NCBI GenBank assembly: GCA_026004675.1
Contig: BPJP01000012.1
Coordinates: 1 to 64,000 of the forward strand
Source: Gemmatales bacterium
GTDB taxonomy: Bacteria; Planctomycetota; Planctomycetia; Gemmatales; Gemmataceae
DNA length: 64,000 bases
Reading direction: 5' to 3'
The translations under genes and the position numbers were made by a program. Shown in pieces: positions 1-44,114 of this stretch. The stretch's first letter is position 1, and each line of letters starts with the position of its first letter. The notes under the pieces are model-generated. The model had not been told where the DNA came from. It ran no database searches and saw only the letters and a list, made by a program, of their open reading frames with translations.

Positions 1-941
1 GTCGACTCCCAACTGCCGATCCCAGAATAAAAGAATCGCTCCAACGGATCCTTCGCTGGGGGCTGCAAGGCGTCGCGGGTCGCCCGGCCGAAATTGAAAG
101 GAACGAGGCAACTGATACGTGAATCGAGAGCGGCTGTGACAGCTGCCGGATCAGCGCCGCCTGCCACCGCTCCCAACAGGATCAGTTTCGACTTGTCAAC
201 ATCGTCACGCTGAGCTAACAGATCGATTCCCCTCATCAGGTCCCAGACCATCCAGCCGATCAAACTTTCGCCCAGGACATGCAACTGCATGCCGACGTTA
301 TAACGGAAATAGTAATCCTGTCGGCTGACGCGAAACGTTTTGGGATAAGACGTTTTGTCGCGGAAGGGATGCTGTCGGCGTTCGCCGTGGCCCAATTGGT
401 CCATGATTAAAACGACACATCCCTGGCGTGCCCAGTTCATGCCCATATCCTGGAGTTCGGGATGCGTCTTCGGATTGTGATGACTATGGCAGATCAGAAT
501 ACCGGGCCGTTTGGTTTCTCCCTGGTCAAATCTTTTAGCCGGTTCATACAAATTGGCCGAGACCAGCAACCCCGGACGGCTTTCAAAGACCACATTCCTG
601 ATCCGGAACCCATCGCCTTCGATGGACCCGGTCACACGGGGATGGAGGGCATTTCTGGCGGGAAAAGAGCCGAGGGACTGTCGCAAGGCCGCGAGTCGGC
701 GATCGCGAAAAGCCTCCCAGTCGCTTCGCGATCGGATTTGCCGCCATATTTTCAAGTGCTGACGATTGGCCGCCCGCAGGCGGCGCAAGACATCCTCCGC
801 CAGCATCTCGCGCAAAGCTTTCGCTTTGGTTTCTTCTTCCACCACACGCGAAGAAAGCCGGCGAATGGTTTCGTCGTTTCCCCAAGCGCATGACGCAATC
901 AACAGAAAAGACAGCACGCAAACCGCTCGACGTCGCCTCAT
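1..941 (-). CDS. secreted alpha/beta-hydrolase (acetylxylan esterase-like), partial, nucleophile Ser missing
   Basis: The gene runs off the left edge; 313 N-terminal residues are visible. Residues 1-21 look like a signal peptide (Arg-rich start, hydrophobic core, SCAWG), so the protein is probably exported. The fold family is the acetylxylan esterase-like alpha/beta hydrolases common in planctomycetes: there is a GILICHSHHN strand-turn near residue 147 and a DQLGHGER motif near 181. Where the family has a G-x-S-x-G nucleophile elbow, this protein reads GAVAGG (257-262), so the Ser position is Val259. It may be a non-catalytic paralogue. The His/Asp part lies outside the window. The start is the ATG at 941, diverging from the propeller gene at 1212. 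Confidence 0.75.
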   Translation of the reverse strand, partial: MRRRRAVCVLSFLLIASCAWGNDETIRRLSSRVVEEETKAKALREMLAEDVLRRLRAANRQHLKIWRQIRSRSDWEAFRDRRLAALRQSLGSFPARNALHPRVTGSIEGDGFRIRNVVFESRPGLLVSANLYEPAKRFDQGETKRPGILICHSHHNPKTHPELQDMGMNWARQGCVVLIMDQLGHGERRQHPFRDKTSYPKTFRVSRQDYYFRYNVGMQLHVLGESLIGWMVWDLMRGIDLLAQRDDVDKSKLILLGAVAGGADPAAVTAALDSRISCLVPFNFGRATRDALQPPAKDPLERFFYSGIGSWES

Positions 942-1211
942 GGTAATCCTCGATATGTGATCCTCGATAGCTTTTCGGTGAAAGCAGGAAGCGTCCAGTT
1001 GTGGTGGCACAACCGCTGCGATGGGAAATACCGAAAATAGTGCCCCAAAGGGTTGTGTCGGCGGAAAACTTTGCCCCATCGACGAAAACCGCCTCGCGGG
1101 TCTTAAACAGACATGGTAAAGTGGAAATCGGTCCGCGCCAACGAATTGGCCAACAAGATGGTTGTCTGGTAGAAGCTCGATTGCCGCGTGCCCCTTGTTC
1201 GAGAAAGCGAC

Positions 1212-2679
1212 ATGAAACCCTATCGTTTGCCGTTGATCCTGGCGACTCTGGTGAGCAGCACGTCCTTGTTGCGAGCGACAGAGCGAGTCTACACGAATCC
1301 GTTGCCGCCATCAGCATTCGCTTTAAGCCGGTTGAACCTGAGAATGGCCTGGCGAGTGTATGTGCCGACGTTCGGCAAGAAAGACGGCATCTTCAGCGTT
1401 CAGTTCTTTGGCGATCATGTAGTGGTTCAAACGCGCAGCGGAGCCATCACCGCATTGGAACTAAAAACCGGTCGCGCCCTGTGGCGGACGCGCGTCGGCC
1501 AGATGTATCGCGTTACTCACCCGTTGGGTGCCAACAAGAAGTGGTACTTTGCGTTGAGAGGCACGAACCTGTATGCGTTGGACAAAGAAACAGGAGTGGC
1601 CGAGTGGGAATTCGACTTGCCGACTCTTCCCTCGGCAAGCGTAGCCGCCGATGAAGAGCGTTTTTTACATCGTTGGCGGTCTGGGTCGGTTGTACGGATT
1701 TCAGTTTCCCGGCAAGCCTGCGCCGCGAATTTATGCGACTTCGATCGATTACTCGACCCAACCCCTGCCGCAAAAACCAGAGGAAGGCTATTCTCCCTAT
1801 GACCGAGCACGCGGCTATGGCGGGAAAGTCTTCGAATCGATCGGCCCGCTGCACGACTTGATGGAACCACGAAAAGAAGCACCGCCGAAGCCGAAGCCGA
1901 CTTTGATTTGGGATTATCGCGCCAACGCTCGACTCGACCGTCCGCCAATCGTCACAGCGGACAACCTCGTGATCGCCGATAGCGGCGGGCGATTTTTTAT
2001 CACGTCCAAAACCGAAACAAGAGTGAATGCACAATTCGAAACCGACGCCCCGCTATCAGCTCCACTGGCTCAATACCGTTCCCTCGTCACGCCTGAGGGG
2101 CCAAATAAAAAAATGGTCATTGAAGAAATGGTCTATGTCGCGTCTCGCGACTATCACCTGTACGCTCTCAATGTTACGCGCGGCGAAATCGTCTGGCGTT
2201 TTACGGGCGGAGCGCCCATTCTCCAACAGCCCGTTGTCAACGACTGGGAGATTTACGTCGTTACGGAAGGAGCCGGCCTGTATCGGATCGATCGCAAAAA
2301 CGGCGACATCCTCTGGCGGAACCGCGAGGCACAGCGGTTCTTGTCCGCGAACAAGAAATTCGTGTACGCTGCCGACGTGCAAAACAACTTGCTTATTCTC
2401 AGTCGAGAAAGCGGTGCCATTCGCGCACGTTACGATGTCAGAGACTTCAACGTCCCCGTTGTCAATGAAGCCACCGATCGGTTCTTTTTGGCAGCCCATA
2501 ATGGCCTGCTGGTTTGCCTTCACGACCGCGAATACTCGACTCCGCTCATCATGAAAACGCCGCTCGCTGAGCCGAAACCGAAAAAAACCAGGCGAAATGC
2601 AGCCACCAGCGAAAAAAACCCAAATAAACAACGAACTCTGTTGCACTCGTTCGCCGTGATAATGTCCTTTGCCAGTTAA
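1212..2679 (+). CDS. PQQ-like beta-propeller repeat protein (one frameshift)
   Basis: A secreted propeller protein of about 488 residues. It begins MKPYRLPLIL with a signal peptide ending near RATERVY. Blades carry the usual strands: VVQTRSGAITALELKTGRALW, YALDKETGVAEWEF, YALNVTRGEIVWRF, YRIDRKNGDILW. These are the Trp-docking type repeats of quinoprotein-like propellers; no ligand can be inferred. The frame breaks at a run of six T (1661-1666). Removing one T joins the two halves in a continuous blade (AADEERFYIVGGLGR), so a sequencing over-call is likely. The orphan permease starts 26 bp downstream on the same strand and may be co-transcribed. Confidence 0.8.
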
Positions 2680-2705
2680 TGACTGCGTAAATACTGATAC
2701 GATCG

Positions 2706-4376
2706 GTGTCACTCTTTCGCGTTCTGGGCAGTTTGCTGCTATTTCTTTTGGCGTTGCCTTTGGCCGCACCATGGTTGGAATTGGCAGCGACTCCGCAAGG
2801 ATGGCTCGCGTGGCAGGAATTCGGCAGAATCCGATCCCTTGCGTTTAATACGCTGATTTTGTCGCTGGGTACGCTGTCGATCGTTCTTCCTTCGGGCACA
2901 CTTTTGGGCTTTCTTCTTTTTCGCACCGATCTGCCCGGCGCGCGATTCTACCAGCTACTTGCCTTTGTCACACTCTTTGTGCCTTTACCGTTATACACGG
3001 CGGCATGGCAATCAGCATTTGGCAGTGACGGCTTGTTCTTTTTCGATGCCAACACCGCCTGGACGCCATGGGTCGAAGGACTCTCCTCCGCCATTGGCAT
3101 CCACTCCCTGGCTTCCCTTCCTTGGGTCATCTTGATCACAGGAATGGGGTTTCTTCAAGTGGAAAGCGAACTGGAGGAAGATGCCCTCACCGCTGCCGGG
3201 ATGTGGCGTGTCTTTGTCTCCACGACTTTGTTGCGAGCACGCGGGCTGATTCTGGCCGCCGCCCTGTTCGTGTGGCTGCAGACGACGGAAGAAATCAGCG
3301 CTGCTTATTTCCTTGGTGTTCGAAGTTTTGCCGAGGAAGTGTACTACCAATTTCAGGCTTCTGATCAAACTGGTCTGGTCAGAAGTGTGGCGTTGTCTGT
3401 CCCGCAAGTCGTGTTGACCTTCTTGATCCTGGTAGCAGTCGGTTATTTGCTGCGCGGCTGGGACTCGCCCTTGATGTCGGGGCGGTTGAGCCTGGTGTTT
3501 CGATTGGGACGATGGCGCTGGCCATTGAGCGTCACGCTAGGCTGCTTTTCGTTGGTGTTGGCTGGTGTTCCTCTTTTGAGTTTGCTCAGGAAAGCTGGTT
3601 CAATCGGCTTTCCCCCCGTTTTTTCGCTCGCGACGGCGACGGATTATCTGCACGAGTCCGTCATCGCGAACTTTGGACTGATTTTAAGGAGTGTTTTGAC
3701 AGCGCTTTGCACGGGAGTTGCGACAGGGACATTGGCATTGAGCCTTTGTTGGTTGTCGTTGCATGCCCGCTGGCTGCGATCTATGCTCGCCCTGGTTATC
3801 GCAATGGGACTGGCCTTGCCGGCTCCCATCCTCGGTTTCGGCTTGAAATCCGGGATAGAGTGGCTGATTGGCATCGAAGAGTTTTTGGCCCATGCTGCGG
3901 GAATTCATCCGAGCGGCACCTTGCCCCTGGCTCGAATACTCTATTTCGGGCCGTCCTTTGTGCCGAATTGCTGGGCGTGGGCGGTCCGCTTTTTCCCTTA
4001 CGCTTGTCTGGTATGTTGGCCCGCGGTTCGCAAGTTCCCGCCGGAACTACACGACATCTGCGTCCTCGATGACATTCGGCCAGGGAAGGAGTTCGTCCAC
4101 CTTGTGTGGCCGGCCTTGACCCCGTTTTGGCTGGCTGCGTCGTTTCTCGTATTCGTCCTGGCTCTTTCTGAAATCGGGGCAAGCAAACTCGTTGCCACTC
4201 CCGGTGCCTACAGTTACGTACAGGAATTGTTTATGCGGCTGCATTATGGCGTGACCAACGAGTCCGCAGCGTTGGTGTTGGTTCTGTTGGCCATCGTCTT
4301 GCTGGCCTCCGGGATCGCCATAGGCACTGCCATGATCTGGCGGCGGCGAAACCCAATCGGTCGGCTGTCGCAATAA
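2706..4376 (+). CDS. ABC transporter permease, two fused transmembrane modules
   Basis: A 556-residue polytopic membrane protein with about twelve hydrophobic segments in two halves, as in FbpB/ThiP-type binding-protein-dependent permeases of the iron(III)/thiamine/spermidine class. The EAA-loop contact for the ATPase is clear in the first half (ELEEDALTAAGMWRVF, near residues 155-170) and degenerate in the second (ELHDICVLDDIRPGKEF). Translation starts at a GTG with an in-frame stop 18 bp upstream. No ATP-binding subunit or substrate-binding protein is nearby; the upstream neighbour is a propeller protein and the downstream one is EF-G. The substrate cannot be assigned. Confidence 0.75.
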   Translation: MSLFRVLGSLLLFLLALPLAAPWLELAATPQGWLAWQEFGRIRSLAFNTLILSLGTLSIVLPSGTLLGFLLFRTDLPGARFYQLLAFVTLFVPLPLYTAAWQSAFGSDGLFFFDANTAWTPWVEGLSSAIGIHSLASLPWVILITGMGFLQVESELEEDALTAAGMWRVFVSTTLLRARGLILAAALFVWLQTTEEISAAYFLGVRSFAEEVYYQFQASDQTGLVRSVALSVPQVVLTFLILVAVGYLLRGWDSPLMSGRLSLVFRLGRWRWPLSVTLGCFSLVLAGVPLLSLLRKAGSIGFPPVFSLATATDYLHESVIANFGLILRSVLTALCTGVATGTLALSLCWLSLHARWLRSMLALVIAMGLALPAPILGFGLKSGIEWLIGIEEFLAHAAGIHPSGTLPLARILYFGPSFVPNCWAWAVRFFPYACLVCWPAVRKFPPELHDICVLDDIRPGKEFVHLVWPALTPFWLAASFLVFVLALSEIGASKLVATPGAYSYVQELFMRLHYGVTNESAALVLVLLAIVLLASGIAIGTAMIWRRRNPIGRLSQ

Positions 4377-4724
4377 CGCCGACGCCGAAGTCCGCCGGAA
4401 ACCGGAAGCAGACATTAGCAATGTTAACAGGCCAAGCCGTTTAGGTGGCCGTTTGCCAGCGGCCTTTGTGCCGGGGGTCCATTTGTCGTGCATCATCCCC
4501 TGCGACGCAACCCGTAATTCGCGTACCAACCCATCTTGACCATTTTCAGATGATTTCATAAGTTTATGCTCTTCAACGGAGAAGGGAAGCGGCCTGTTTG
4601 GGAATCCCATCGCTGTGTCGATCTCACCACGCTGGATTCAGCCGAACCCCTAACCTGGGAAAATTTCTCTTTTTTGAAAGTGCACGACCAATCGCGCACG
4701 CGGAATGATTGCGGACTTGCTATT
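4377..4724 (+). other. intergenic region between the permease gene and the EF-G gene
   Basis: No gene is supported here. A small GC stem (GGCCG, 8-nt loop, CGGCC) lies near 4447-4464, followed by TTTG; it could be a weak terminator for the permease. A candidate sigma-70-type promoter lies at 4536-4564. The EF-G frame is open upstream to an ATG at 4566, but that extension has no similarity to EF-G and its composition is unremarkable. Confidence 0.5.
4536..4564 (+). promoter_or_regulatory. candidate promoter for the EF-G gene
   Basis: TTGACC (4536-4541), a 17-bp spacer and TAAGTT (4559-4564) resemble a sigma-70-type promoter. It would give a leader of roughly 150 nt before the EF-G ATG at 4725. 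The -10 is weak, and the call rests on sequence resemblance only. Confidence 0.35.
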
Positions 4725-36849: not shown

Positions 36850-37887
36850 TCAGGGTAGAACATAGGCGAAGCCGTCGTCGCGGGCGTTCATGAACCACCA
36901 CGTTTGTTGACTGACATCGTTGCTGATGAAACGAACGCTGCCGTCGCAGAAAGCGGAGTTGACACCAGCAGGATGCCGACTTCGTGCGGTCGCCTGTTGA
37001 AACGGGCACGGCTGCCAGGCCCCCATTCCGTCCTGCGGCGCATTGATACATCCCTGACAATCGTCGGCGTTTGGATTGTTGTTATTTGGACCGGTGCAAT
37101 CCCAAGTCCAACCAGCAGAAGTGACGCTGGCGCCAGGAAAGCCGGCTGCCCACGTTCCGCGTGGATCGGCCGCACTCAGATGAGCGCCAATTCGCAGTTC
37201 GTTTAGCAAAATGGTATGAGCCGCCCCATCTTGATTGGTCAAGTCGATCAGGCGGGCACCCCAGTTGATGCACATGACGCCGCCAGCAGGCGTGCTGTTC
37301 GGAATACCGACCCAGGATTGTGTGTAGTTACTGGTCGGGCTTCTGCCGTCCCTTGTACTGGTCCAGCCGAGGCTGTCGGGCTGGTGAATGCCACCGGCGT
37401 TGCAGCCGTAGTTACCCCTTGCCCAACCCGGACCGGCAGCTCCGTTCCAGGGAGAACCGTGATTCTGGTCCGAGGGGCATTCGAAGATCTTAATCCTTTG
37501 GCTTCGAACACTCCGCCAGGCGGAACTCCCTGTGCTCATGTAGCTTTCGACGCTGGAGGCAATCGGCTTGTACAGGTTTTCCTGTTCGATGTACGGGAGG
37601 ATGATGACGGCCCAATTCGGTCCGAAATTCTGATTGGCGTAGCGAGGGTCGACGCCGCTTCGCATCCAGACAGCAACGGGGAACTGACCGTGCTGATCGT
37701 GATAGTTCTGACAACCTGTGGACAATTGCTTGAGATTGTTGGCACAAACGATACGGTTGGACGCTTCGCGTACTTTTTGCACCGCCGGCAGCAGCAACGC
37801 GATCAAGACGCCAATAATGGCGATGACCACCAATAATTCGATCAGCGTAAACGCAGACCGGGCACGGATAAGGGGATGATGGTTCAT
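36850..37887 (-). CDS. DUF1559 prepilin-type protein
   Basis: 345 residues. The N terminus has a type IV pilin-like signal (ARSAFTLIELLVVIAIIGVL with cleavage before Phe), followed by LPAVQKVREAS and the DUF1559 opening CANNLKQLSTGCQNYHDQ. The C terminus carries the typical HPAGVNSAFCDGSVRF block. These pseudopilin-like proteins occur in large numbers in planctomycetes; the function is unproven. It is first in the set with the lipoprotein and HzsA-related genes. A 483-bp divergent region separates it from the FHA gene. Confidence 0.9.
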   Translation of the reverse strand: MNHHPLIRARSAFTLIELLVVIAIIGVLIALLLPAVQKVREASNRIVCANNLKQLSTGCQNYHDQHGQFPVAVWMRSGVDPRYANQNFGPNWAVIILPYIEQENLYKPIASSVESYMSTGSSAWRSVRSQRIKIFECPSDQNHGSPWNGAAGPGWARGNYGCNAGGIHQPDSLGWTSTRDGRSPTSNYTQSWVGIPNSTPAGGVMCINWGARLIDLTNQDGAAHTILLNELRIGAHLSAADPRGTWAAGFPGASVTSAGWTWDCTGPNNNNPNADDCQGCINAPQDGMGAWQPCPFQQATARSRHPAGVNSAFCDGSVRFISNDVSQQTWWFMNARDDGFAYVLP

Positions 37888-38370: not shown

Positions 38371-41300
38371 ATGGCGAATGGATTCACGCAAATGTTGCAG
38401 GTTGCCAGGATGGCCGAAACCGACCTCCATTCTGCATGTTCGTCGGACTCCACTGCCGTCGTTCGCTTGGAATTAAGGCAAGCTGGGGCCGGTCCTTTCA
38501 CGTACACCATTTCCCCCGGTGGGTTCCTGATCGGGAGTGTCGTCGGCTGCGATTTGCGTTTGCCTGGACGCGATCTGCCACCCGTGATCTGCCTGATAAG
38601 CTGGGCGGACGGGGAAGTCCGGCTGCGGCAGCTGACTAGTTCCTATCCGGTGTTATTGAATGGTCGTCCCACCAAGGAAGCCCGACTGGCCGACGGCGAC
38701 CGAATCGCCTTCGGCGATTGCCAGGGACAGGTCTTTGTGCCGCCGTTGCCGGTCGGCGGTTTCGTCACAGAAAGGCTGTCGCTGCGTGAGCGGGAACTCA
38801 ACCAACAGTTGGAAGACGTCTCTCGCCAGCGTCAAGCGCTGGAAGAGCAAGCCGCTCGATTACAGAAGCAACAAGAAGAAGTGGAGGCGTTTCGTCAGGA
38901 ATTGGCGGATTTGCGGCAGGAACTATTCGAACGATATCGGGAGCGGCGTGATCGTCTGGCGGGGTTTCAAGAAGCTATCAATCGGGCGGCTTTGAAGCTC
39001 CAGGAACGGAAAAGGCTCTTCGACGAGGAAGAAAAGAGACGCAAGCAGGTCGATGCAACGAAGGCGGAGGACTCGGCGGAAAAAGTCGATCCAATAACTC
39101 GTTTAGACGCCCGTTTGGAAGAACTGGAAAAGCGGGAACGTCGGGTTGCGGAGCAATTGGAGTTGTTGGAGATCAGTCGGGAAGAATGCCGGGCACGGGA
39201 ATGCCAGATCGCCGAAGAGCGGCAAACGCTTGAAGAACAACAGGCGGAGTATCGGGCTGACCTGGTCCGCTTGGATCGCGCTCGCGGGGAGTTGGAGAAG
39301 CGCGAACAACAGCTGCAGCTGCGTCTTGGCGAGGTGGAACGTCGAGAACAAGACCTGGAAGCCCAGAAACGAGACGTCGAGGAGCAGGAAAAGCAATTAC
39401 ACGAATGGCACGGCCGACTGTGTGCCCAGGCGGACGAGTTGGCCCAGCGCGAGCAGGAGTTGCGGCAGGCACGGGCTCGCTGCGAAGAGCAGGAACGCCA
39501 GCTTGCCGACCGTTTGCATGCGTTCGAAGGGCAACAGGCGGCCGTGGCCCAGCTGCACAACCGCTTGCAACAAGCTCAACAGGACTTGCAGCGCGAAGAG
39601 CAGGAACTGGCCGACCAGCGCCGCCGACAAGACGAAGCGGAGGCCGAGCTCCGTGCCAAAATTGATGAATGCCGGGAGCTGCGCCGCGAACTGGAATTGC
39701 AAAAGAGCCAACTCGAAGAGGAACGCAAGGAACTGGAAAGACGGGCAGAAGAAATCGCCAGGATCGTCGCCAACCAACGGCAGACGGAAGAGAAACTGGC
39801 CGCGGAAGAACAACGTTTGCAGCGTCGGGCACAGGAACTGGACGCGATCGCCGCCCGGCAATCCGAGGAAGCCAGCCTGCAAGAAATCCGGTCCGCGCAA
39901 CTTGTCGAGATGCAACAGCGGCTGGCGAGCGAACGGCAAGCCCTGCGCGAACGAGAAGCCGCGTTGGCGCATTCGGAGCAGGCGCGGGCAGCGCTGCAAG
40001 AGCAATTGCGCCGTCGTTCGGAGGACCTGGCAGAAAGACAGAAGCAGCTATCCGAACAGGCGCGCAAACAGGCGGAAGAACTCGAAGCCTTTGAAAGGCA
40101 ACGGGCCGCCATCGCTGAGGAACAGAAATTGGCCGAGCAACGTCTTTCGGAACTGCAACGGCAAATCGAAACCAAAACAAAAGAAGTCGAGGCGTTGCAA
40201 GAAGGCCTCGCTCGTCGCGAAGAAGAAGTCTGTCGCCATGTCGAAAGGCTGAAAGAAGCAGGCCAGAAGATCGCTCGCGCCCGCAAGTTCCTCGCCCAGG
40301 AACGGTATCAATGGGAGTCGGAACGCCGTGAGCAGGAAGATCGACTGGCCCAAGCACGAAGCGAACTGGAAGCGCTGCGTCACGAGGTGCTCGAATTGCA
40401 GGAAACTTTGCCCGAACTGGAACTGACAACCCAAACAGCTGCGGACAAACTAGCTGCCGCTCGCGAACGCCTTAGCGAACACCTTGAAGAATTGCATGCC
40501 TACGCCCGCCAGCGACAGGAAGACTTGGAGAATCTTCGCGGACAGGTGCAGGAGGAAGCAAGTCGATTACAGCAACAAGCGGCGACACTTCTCAAGGCCC
40601 GTGATGAATACCGGCTGGCGGTGGCCGGTTTCCGGCAACAGGTTATCGCCTGGCAGGGCCAGGTCAGTGATCTAAAGCGTTCGCTGGCAGCGGACGAATC
40701 ACGCATCGCCGCCACCACGGCTCGACTGGCCGAAAAGGAGCAGGAACTCGAAGTCCAACAACGCGAAGTTGCGGAAAAACGAAGCGAAGTCGATCGCCAT
40801 TTGAACGACATGCGCGAGTGGTATCGGCAAAAACTGCGCGAACTGGCCAGGGAGTACGAGCCGGAAGTCGGTTCGGCAACCGAACCGCAGGCCAACTCCG
40901 CAATCCTCCCGATGACGGAGATCGAGCCTGGCGACAAACGTCTCGGCGAGTTGTTGCAATCGCATGGTTTGATCGACGAGAGGTCTCTGACGGCGCTCCT
41001 TGTCGAAGCAAGCCGGCAACGGCGCAGCCTGCGTCAGGTTCTGCTGGCCAGTGGTCATGTCACTTTATATCAACTTGCCCTGATCGAAGCCGGCAATTTG
41101 GACGGGCTGATGCTGGGGCCGGTTCGCGTCGTAGATCGGCTACGCGTCACGTCGAAAGAAACGGTCTATCGGGTCTTCGATCCTCGCCGACCGGCTGACA
41201 AGGGGCATGTTCTGTTACGGCACTTGGCCGAAGCGGAAGCGGCAGACGCAAACCGAGCCGAAGAATTTCGCCGATGTTTCTCTTTGGCCGCTTCCGTGCA

Positions 41301-41877
41301 ACATCCGCATGTGGCCGCGACCTACGAAGTGTTGGAGATTACCGGCCGGCCAGCTGTGTTGCAGGAATGGCTTACTGGCTTGCCCGCCACGGAATGGGCG
41401 GACCGAGCTTCGGCTCCAGGCGTGTGCTATCGGCTGTTGACGCAAGCAGCCCTTGGGCTGCAAGCTCTTCATCAAAGTGGTCAACGTTACGGCCGACTTC
41501 ACCCTGCCGCTTTGCATCTCAACGGCGATGGCATCTTGAAACTGTCCTGTTTCGGCGATCCCACCTGGCTATTGCCAGATGAATTGCGCGGCGCGGAGCA
41601 GTCAACCGCCGACGAGCTTCGGGCACTCGGCATTCTCGCCAGGGAATGGTTGAACTCGGCTTCCCGCTCGCGCCCACGAACCAAGGCGCCGTCGGCGTTG
41701 GTCGAGTTGATCGAAAAGCTTGCCGACGAGGAAAACGGCATCTCCTCGGCGAGCGACCTTTTGGACGCTCTCGACAACATCAGCGCCTTGGTGCCGGCCA
41801 ATGCGGATGCCTGGGAGCGGCTGCTAGAGTTCATTTGCGACCATTCCGACAAGACTCAACTTCGGCAAACAGCATGA
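38371..41877 (+). CDS. FHA domain / long coiled-coil / pseudokinase protein
   Basis: About 1168 residues from the ATG at 38371 (other in-frame ATGs at 38392 and 38410). Residues 14-123 look like an FHA phosphothreonine-reader domain (PGGFLIGSVVGCDLRLPGR, LNGRPTKEARLADGDRIAFG). Residues about 135-830 form a nearly uninterrupted Glu/Gln/Arg-rich coiled coil. Residues 856-908 (RLGELLQSHGLIDERSLTAL, VTLYQLALIEAG) resemble the N-terminal domain of type II secretion ATPases. Residues 912-1143 resemble a Ser/Thr kinase, but HRD has become LHP (RLHPAALHLN) and DFG has become CFG; no VAIK-type Lys is seen. It is probably a scaffold or phospho-signal reader, not an active kinase. Confidence 0.8.
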   Translation: MANGFTQMLQVARMAETDLHSACSSDSTAVVRLELRQAGAGPFTYTISPGGFLIGSVVGCDLRLPGRDLPPVICLISWADGEVRLRQLTSSYPVLLNGRPTKEARLADGDRIAFGDCQGQVFVPPLPVGGFVTERLSLRERELNQQLEDVSRQRQALEEQAARLQKQQEEVEAFRQELADLRQELFERYRERRDRLAGFQEAINRAALKLQERKRLFDEEEKRRKQVDATKAEDSAEKVDPITRLDARLEELEKRERRVAEQLELLEISREECRARECQIAEERQTLEEQQAEYRADLVRLDRARGELEKREQQLQLRLGEVERREQDLEAQKRDVEEQEKQLHEWHGRLCAQADELAQREQELRQARARCEEQERQLADRLHAFEGQQAAVAQLHNRLQQAQQDLQREEQELADQRRRQDEAEAELRAKIDECRELRRELELQKSQLEEERKELERRAEEIARIVANQRQTEEKLAAEEQRLQRRAQELDAIAARQSEEASLQEIRSAQLVEMQQRLASERQALREREAALAHSEQARAALQEQLRRRSEDLAERQKQLSEQARKQAEELEAFERQRAAIAEEQKLAEQRLSELQRQIETKTKEVEALQEGLARREEEVCRHVERLKEAGQKIARARKFLAQERYQWESERREQEDRLAQARSELEALRHEVLELQETLPELELTTQTAADKLAAARERLSEHLEELHAYARQRQEDLENLRGQVQEEASRLQQQAATLLKARDEYRLAVAGFRQQVIAWQGQVSDLKRSLAADESRIAATTARLAEKEQELEVQQREVAEKRSEVDRHLNDMREWYRQKLRELAREYEPEVGSATEPQANSAILPMTEIEPGDKRLGELLQSHGLIDERSLTALLVEASRQRRSLRQVLLASGHVTLYQLALIEAGNLDGLMLGPVRVVDRLRVTSKETVYRVFDPRRPADKGHVLLRHLAEAEAADANRAEEFRRCFSLAASVQHPHVAATYEVLEITGRPAVLQEWLTGLPATEWADRASAPGVCYRLLTQAALGLQALHQSGQRYGRLHPAALHLNGDGILKLSCFGDPTWLLPDELRGAEQSTADELRALGILAREWLNSASRSRPRTKAPSALVELIEKLADEENGISSASDLLDALDNISALVPANADAWERLLEFICDHSDKTQLRQTA

Positions 41878-43781: not shown

Positions 43782-43814
43782 AGAAACATGGTGTTCAGTG
43801 GCGAGGCTTATCCG

Positions 43815-44114
43815 ATGAGTCAGAACGTGCAACAGGAACGACGCAAACGCAACATTCCCGTAGCCGTGGACCGCCGAAAGGGCAAAGGGAAATCCGGCCC
43901 CGAACGGCGTCGCCAGGTCGATCCCACTACTTGCGAACGCGATTACACGGAGGATGAAATCGCCTTCATGAAGGCGATGGACCAGTATAAACGCGACAAT
44001 CGCCGACCGTTTCCGACCTGGAGCGAGGTACTCGAAGTGCTGAAGGCTTTGGGGTATCGCAAAGTTGCGGCACCAACGGCTCTGCCGGGTCAGTCTGTCC
44101 CGCCAAAAGGCTAG
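43815..44114 (+). CDS. small conserved-looking protein upstream of lpxB
   Basis: 99 residues: a strongly basic N-terminal half ([21 protein letters not shown], about 8-28) and an acidic helical C-terminal part ([20 protein letters not shown], then [19 protein letters not shown]). The last segment looks like the small helix-turn seen at the end of several planctomycete hypothetical proteins. No function can be named. It lies 30 bp before lpxB, probably in the same transcript. An in-frame ATG nine codons upstream (43788) is an alternative start. Confidence 0.65.

Follow-up and report, generated by a model that had tools for sequence, protein, structure and literature searches.

The window (the whole 64,000 nt stretch analysed here) carries on its forward strand a gene for a protein in which an FHA-fold domain, a coiled coil of ~700 residues, a helical leader and a kinase-fold domain follow one another from the N- to the C-terminus. 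GGAG is found a short way before the ATG of the 1168 aa ORF. The parts of the gene, with the evidence that delimits them, are:

38371–41877, + strand: whole gene, 1168 aa plus stop (ORF and homologues).
38446–38742, + strand: FHA-fold domain, residues 26–124, without the canonical phosphothreonine-contacting Arg, Ser and Asn (Pfam, model, mapping to FhaA).
38776–40860, + strand: coiled coil, residues 136–830, about 700 residues (heptad periodicity, indels, linkers of homologues).
40411–40845, + strand: distal coil, residues 681–825, beginning at an invariant Pro681 (homologue alignment).
40939–41091, + strand: four-helix leader, residues 857–907, of the type that precedes active kinases of the same genome (matches in the genome, model).
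41092–41805, + strand: pseudokinase, about residues 908–1145 (alignment, model, PDB matches).
41863–41874, + strand: conserved C-terminal tail RQTA, consensus R/K-x-S/T-A or KKAG (homologue alignment).

That the ORF exists and has its parts in this order is confirmed by the ORF call, by Pfam and by AlphaFold models made from 47-row alignments, which gave an FHA-like beta sandwich (pLDDT 88.6) and, for the C-terminal part, a leader of four helices ahead of a two-lobed kinase fold (pLDDT 93.1, pTM 0.88). Both folds named in the first-pass annotation were thus recovered, and both were found again when the models were compared with the PDB by Foldseek. No transmembrane helix is predicted in the protein (Kyte-Doolittle, 19-residue windows; highest mean 1.24); nine homologues have such a window above 1.6 and possibly carry a membrane segment. 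Matches to SMC and Rad50 were set aside as reflecting coil composition.

When the homologous loci were compared, none of the genes next to it in the window proved to be a conserved neighbour. A DUF1559/N_methyl pilin-like protein, of a family reported as heavily expanded in planctomycetes (PMC8567305), is encoded upstream on the other strand (36850–37887), and a small protein of 108 aa with no Pfam match is encoded before lpxB (43788–44114). The gene adjoins mutL and an NtrC-type response regulator only in early-branching members (L069–L075, L179, L180), and in five loci, examined gene by gene, all three are on the same strand. No function was read from this arrangement.

A profile of the C-terminal part (E ≤ 1e-30) matched 81 of the 95 sampled genomes of the family to which the window belongs (f1) and five of the seven of a second family of the same planctomycete order (f2), with a single match in each of the 86 matching genomes, and gave no match at that threshold in the 296 other genomes of the class. 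Searching the contigs of the genomes with the single protein as query found no relative; with the alignment as query, 58 loci were found. Loci that a profile of this kind retrieved come, where they are named, from Gemmata, Zavarzinella formosa, Limnoglobus roseus and Fimbriiglobus among others, for which reason f1 is taken as Gemmataceae. The domain order was checked in 47 members whose sequences were read completely or almost completely (41 f1 proteins, plus four from f2 and two more from f1), and it is likely to hold in the remaining matches.

The N-terminal head is an FHA domain by fold. It scores 27.0 bits against Pfam PF00498 (cut-off 20.7), and the FHA domain of FhaA ranks first among the PDB matches of its model. 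The beta sandwich of a canonical FHA domain is present; the phosphate-contacting Arg, Ser and Asn, mapped from FhaA, occur in none of the 47 aligned members. The Arg of the GR motif is replaced by G, S, T, A or E and the Ser of SRRH by P, A or T in all 47 rows, and the Asn of STNGT is likewise missing throughout, the final NG asparagine being retained in 46. The cytoplasmic domain of YscD is itself an FHA fold without the canonical phosphothreonine residues, and the YscD-type profile (Yop-YscD_cpl) is matched by 46 of the 47 members, compared with 27 for the FHA profile. The protein of the window nevertheless differs from YscD in scoring below the curated cut-off (23.8 vs. 33.2) and in having no secretion context. 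Judged by these residues, it does not qualify as a canonical reader of phosphothreonine, as the domain had first been called.

Between the heads, hydrophobic residues recur with a period of 3.5, and the heptad power (3.15) far exceeds the maximum of 300 shuffles (1.14). A coiled coil keeps its register through steps of 4, 7 and 11 residues, and indel lengths between homologues peak at just these values (pairwise alignments, in which the pairs are not independent). Heptad periodicity and register-keeping indels together bear out the very long coiled coil proposed from the sequence, and its length is calculated as ~100 nm if it is one continuous helix (0.15 nm per residue). Of 41 homologues, 37 have a linker of 678–938 aa between the heads, and four fall outside this range with 332 (L069), 331 (L070), 420 (L075) and 1202 (L068) residues; genus g25 has a short linker of about 330 aa. 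Pro681, present in 36 of 36 rows, is the sole proline conserved along the coil. The distal coil that starts there contains the near-invariant motifs WQ (761–762) and HL..W-Y-R-K (810–821), including W761, Q762, W817 and K821.

The leader had been compared with the N domain of type II secretion ATPases. Neither T2SSE_N nor MshEN appears among the families listed at E ≤ 1 for any of the 47 members, so that the resemblance has no profile support. The segment instead has some 30 matches elsewhere in its own genome, most of which extend to a kinase N-lobe, and a similar leader precedes kinases with an intact HRDxKPxN motif (L002, L004, L005 and L008). A secretion role was consequently dropped.

The C-terminal half is the best conserved part of the protein. 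Its model matches kinases in the PDB at E about 1e-13, mycobacterial kinases first and the pseudokinase of MviN in 23rd and 25th place, although the Pfam Pkinase score (13.3 bits) is under the cut-off of 31.7. With the motif register set by alignment with StkP, the bilobal fold of an active Ser/Thr kinase is present and its β3 Lys, HRD Asp and DFG Asp are absent: in the protein of the window the β3 Lys is Arg950, HRD reads YGR (1040–1042), DFG reads CFG (1060–1062), and the activation segment is short. The glycine loop is lost. Arginine replaces the β3 Lys in 46 of 47 rows; no row has Asp at the HRD position, where most members have Arg or His (the site reads HG[RH] in most relatives), and the DFG Asp is Gly in 44 rows and Asp in one. 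The first-pass annotation was thus right in calling a pseudokinase, which holds across the family, and in the change of DFG to CFG, but it placed the HRD site at LHP, which is not the segment that aligns. HRD and DFG are missing as well from homologues in two of the order's families, so that a local sequence error is rejected as the cause; orthologues with intact motifs, which the first-pass annotation had named as a refutation, were not what the alignment showed. The replacement residues are themselves conserved (R950 as above; E930 and G1041, 47 of 47; W1066, 45 of 47), unlike what plain decay would leave, and this pattern in the alignment argues for selection on a putative non-catalytic role.

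Tails of the form [RK]x[SAT][AG] end 35 of 41 homologues, compared with 3 of 301 other ORFs of the same loci (8 of 307 before homologues were removed, in a set that may hold some non-genes). The tail often has S or T after the basic residue, but phosphorylation was not adopted as a general rule because seven tails are KKAG or RKAG and offer neither. In the divergent genus g30 the homologue (L185:5964–8099) keeps the FHA domain, the kinase C-lobe and a tail (RISA); the kinase N-lobe and the leader are not detectable in it, and the long coil is absent.

Among the papers searched there was no publication on this FHA-coil-pseudokinase protein, and within the searches made the earlier statement that no named family has this domain order still holds. 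Similar orders do exist in two further families of the class. Three genomes carry divergent proteins (f5; L167–L169) whose parts are arranged in the same way, which have neither HRD nor DFG and whose C-terminus ends in AA; two of them share 35 and 37% identity with the third, and against the profile built for the family of the window all three score E 1e-15 to 1e-28. In L167 and L169 the f5 gene has a cysC-like (APS kinase) gene upstream of it, and in L169 a 1235 aa protein with a leader and a kinase match is encoded beside it on the opposite strand (887–4591). In two other genomes (f4; L172, L173) an FHA fold, a coiled region and a C-terminal kinase are likewise joined, but the kinase motifs are intact and the proteins group with active kinases. 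The kinase-domain tree supports each group. One shared origin for the pseudokinases of f5 and those of the order would be compatible with it, but fast-evolving rows may attract one another in such a tree. The active Ser/Thr kinases of the same genome share with the window's protein a leader followed by a kinase fold, and differ in the motifs that they keep.

The nearest working parallel is the FHA domain of FhaA with the pseudokinase MviN (Rv3910) of M. tuberculosis (PDB 3OUN), where an FHA fold works in partnership with a degenerate kinase. Those are two separate proteins, linked by a phosphothreonine on the tail of the pseudokinase (PMC12599244), whereas here the two folds lie on one polypeptide, are separated by the coil, and the FHA fold has no phosphate contacts. 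That review lists seven bacterial families composed of or rich in pseudokinases (ActPs1–3, GLW, DLHK, CP1 and DYD); compared by eye, the HGR, GxGEP and LRHL motifs found here differ from those it lists for MviN/ActPs3, GLW, DLHK and CP1.

Taken together, the shape and conservation of the protein suggest a cytoplasmic, non-catalytic, two-headed coiled-coil tether, to which we give a probability of about 0.5. It would form a parallel dimer whose rod measures roughly 100 nm, and either end may dock a protein partner of its own through surfaces needing neither phosphate nor catalysis. The coil after Pro681 and the C-terminal tail could serve as further docking sites, and the rod would then fix the spacing between two partners or structures. 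Against this reading, the short linker of g25 and the coil-less L185 indicate that length is not required everywhere, and the genes flanking the window's copy are not kept beside it in other genomes. A scaffold or tether without catalysis, as first proposed, remains the best reading. The part of that proposal in which it senses phosphorylation is unsupported, because none of the aligned homologues retains the canonical contacting residues. As an explanation in its own right, a scaffold that uses its FHA domain to read phosphothreonine on the target of a kinase is most improbable: the similarity of the fold to a known phosphothreonine binder and the frequent S or T of the tail would suit it, but not the loss of all three contacts or the larger number of members that match the YscD-type profile. 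It is also a long shot that the whole order has a dedicated tether, made from a disused phospho-signalling pair (dead reader and dead kinase), that keeps a distance of about 100 nm between two cell structures in bacteria known for heavily folded internal membranes.

Other readings give more weight to one end or to the rod. The protein could be an allosteric regulator of partner kinases, its leader and pseudokinase pairing with an active leader-bearing kinase while the coil and FHA domain position the complex. This is unlikely, though it would explain why active kinases of that genome carry the same leader and agrees with the presence of PknI, PknA, PknB and the MviN pseudokinase among the closest solved folds; back-to-back dimers are described for the MviN pseudokinase (PMC12599244). 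Gemmataceae proteomes hold about 100 to 150 Ser/Thr kinases (PMC11032199), so possible partners would be many. L185, however, has dispensed with the leader and with the N-lobe, the site of MviN-type dimerisation, and kept the rest. The same protein speaks against nucleotide binding as a shared role, although one genus may have switched function. A switch in which metal-free ATP binding, as in ULK4, reshapes the C-terminal head is very unlikely also because the glycine loop is lost; in its favour are Arg950 on β3, the Arg or His at the HRD Asp, the appearance of ULK4 among the sequence matches, and metal-independent ATP binding with pocket arginines, described in PMC12599244. An intermediate-filament-like cytoskeletal protein, with rods assembling side by side and the folded ends as caps, is quite unlikely: the very long coil, its preserved register and its narrow length range in most members would fit, but linker length ranges between 331 and 1202 aa across genera, and folded heads at both ends differ from simple filament proteins.

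As a single-copy, order-wide protein in which both signalling domains have lost their catalytic or phosphate-binding residues, the tether would be a clean case of signalling parts turned structural. FHA-fold domains of this type should not be annotated as phosphothreonine readers. The order includes Gemmata-like bacteria, which are known for invaginated membranes (PMC8567305), and this makes the long conserved rod a testable candidate for organising them.
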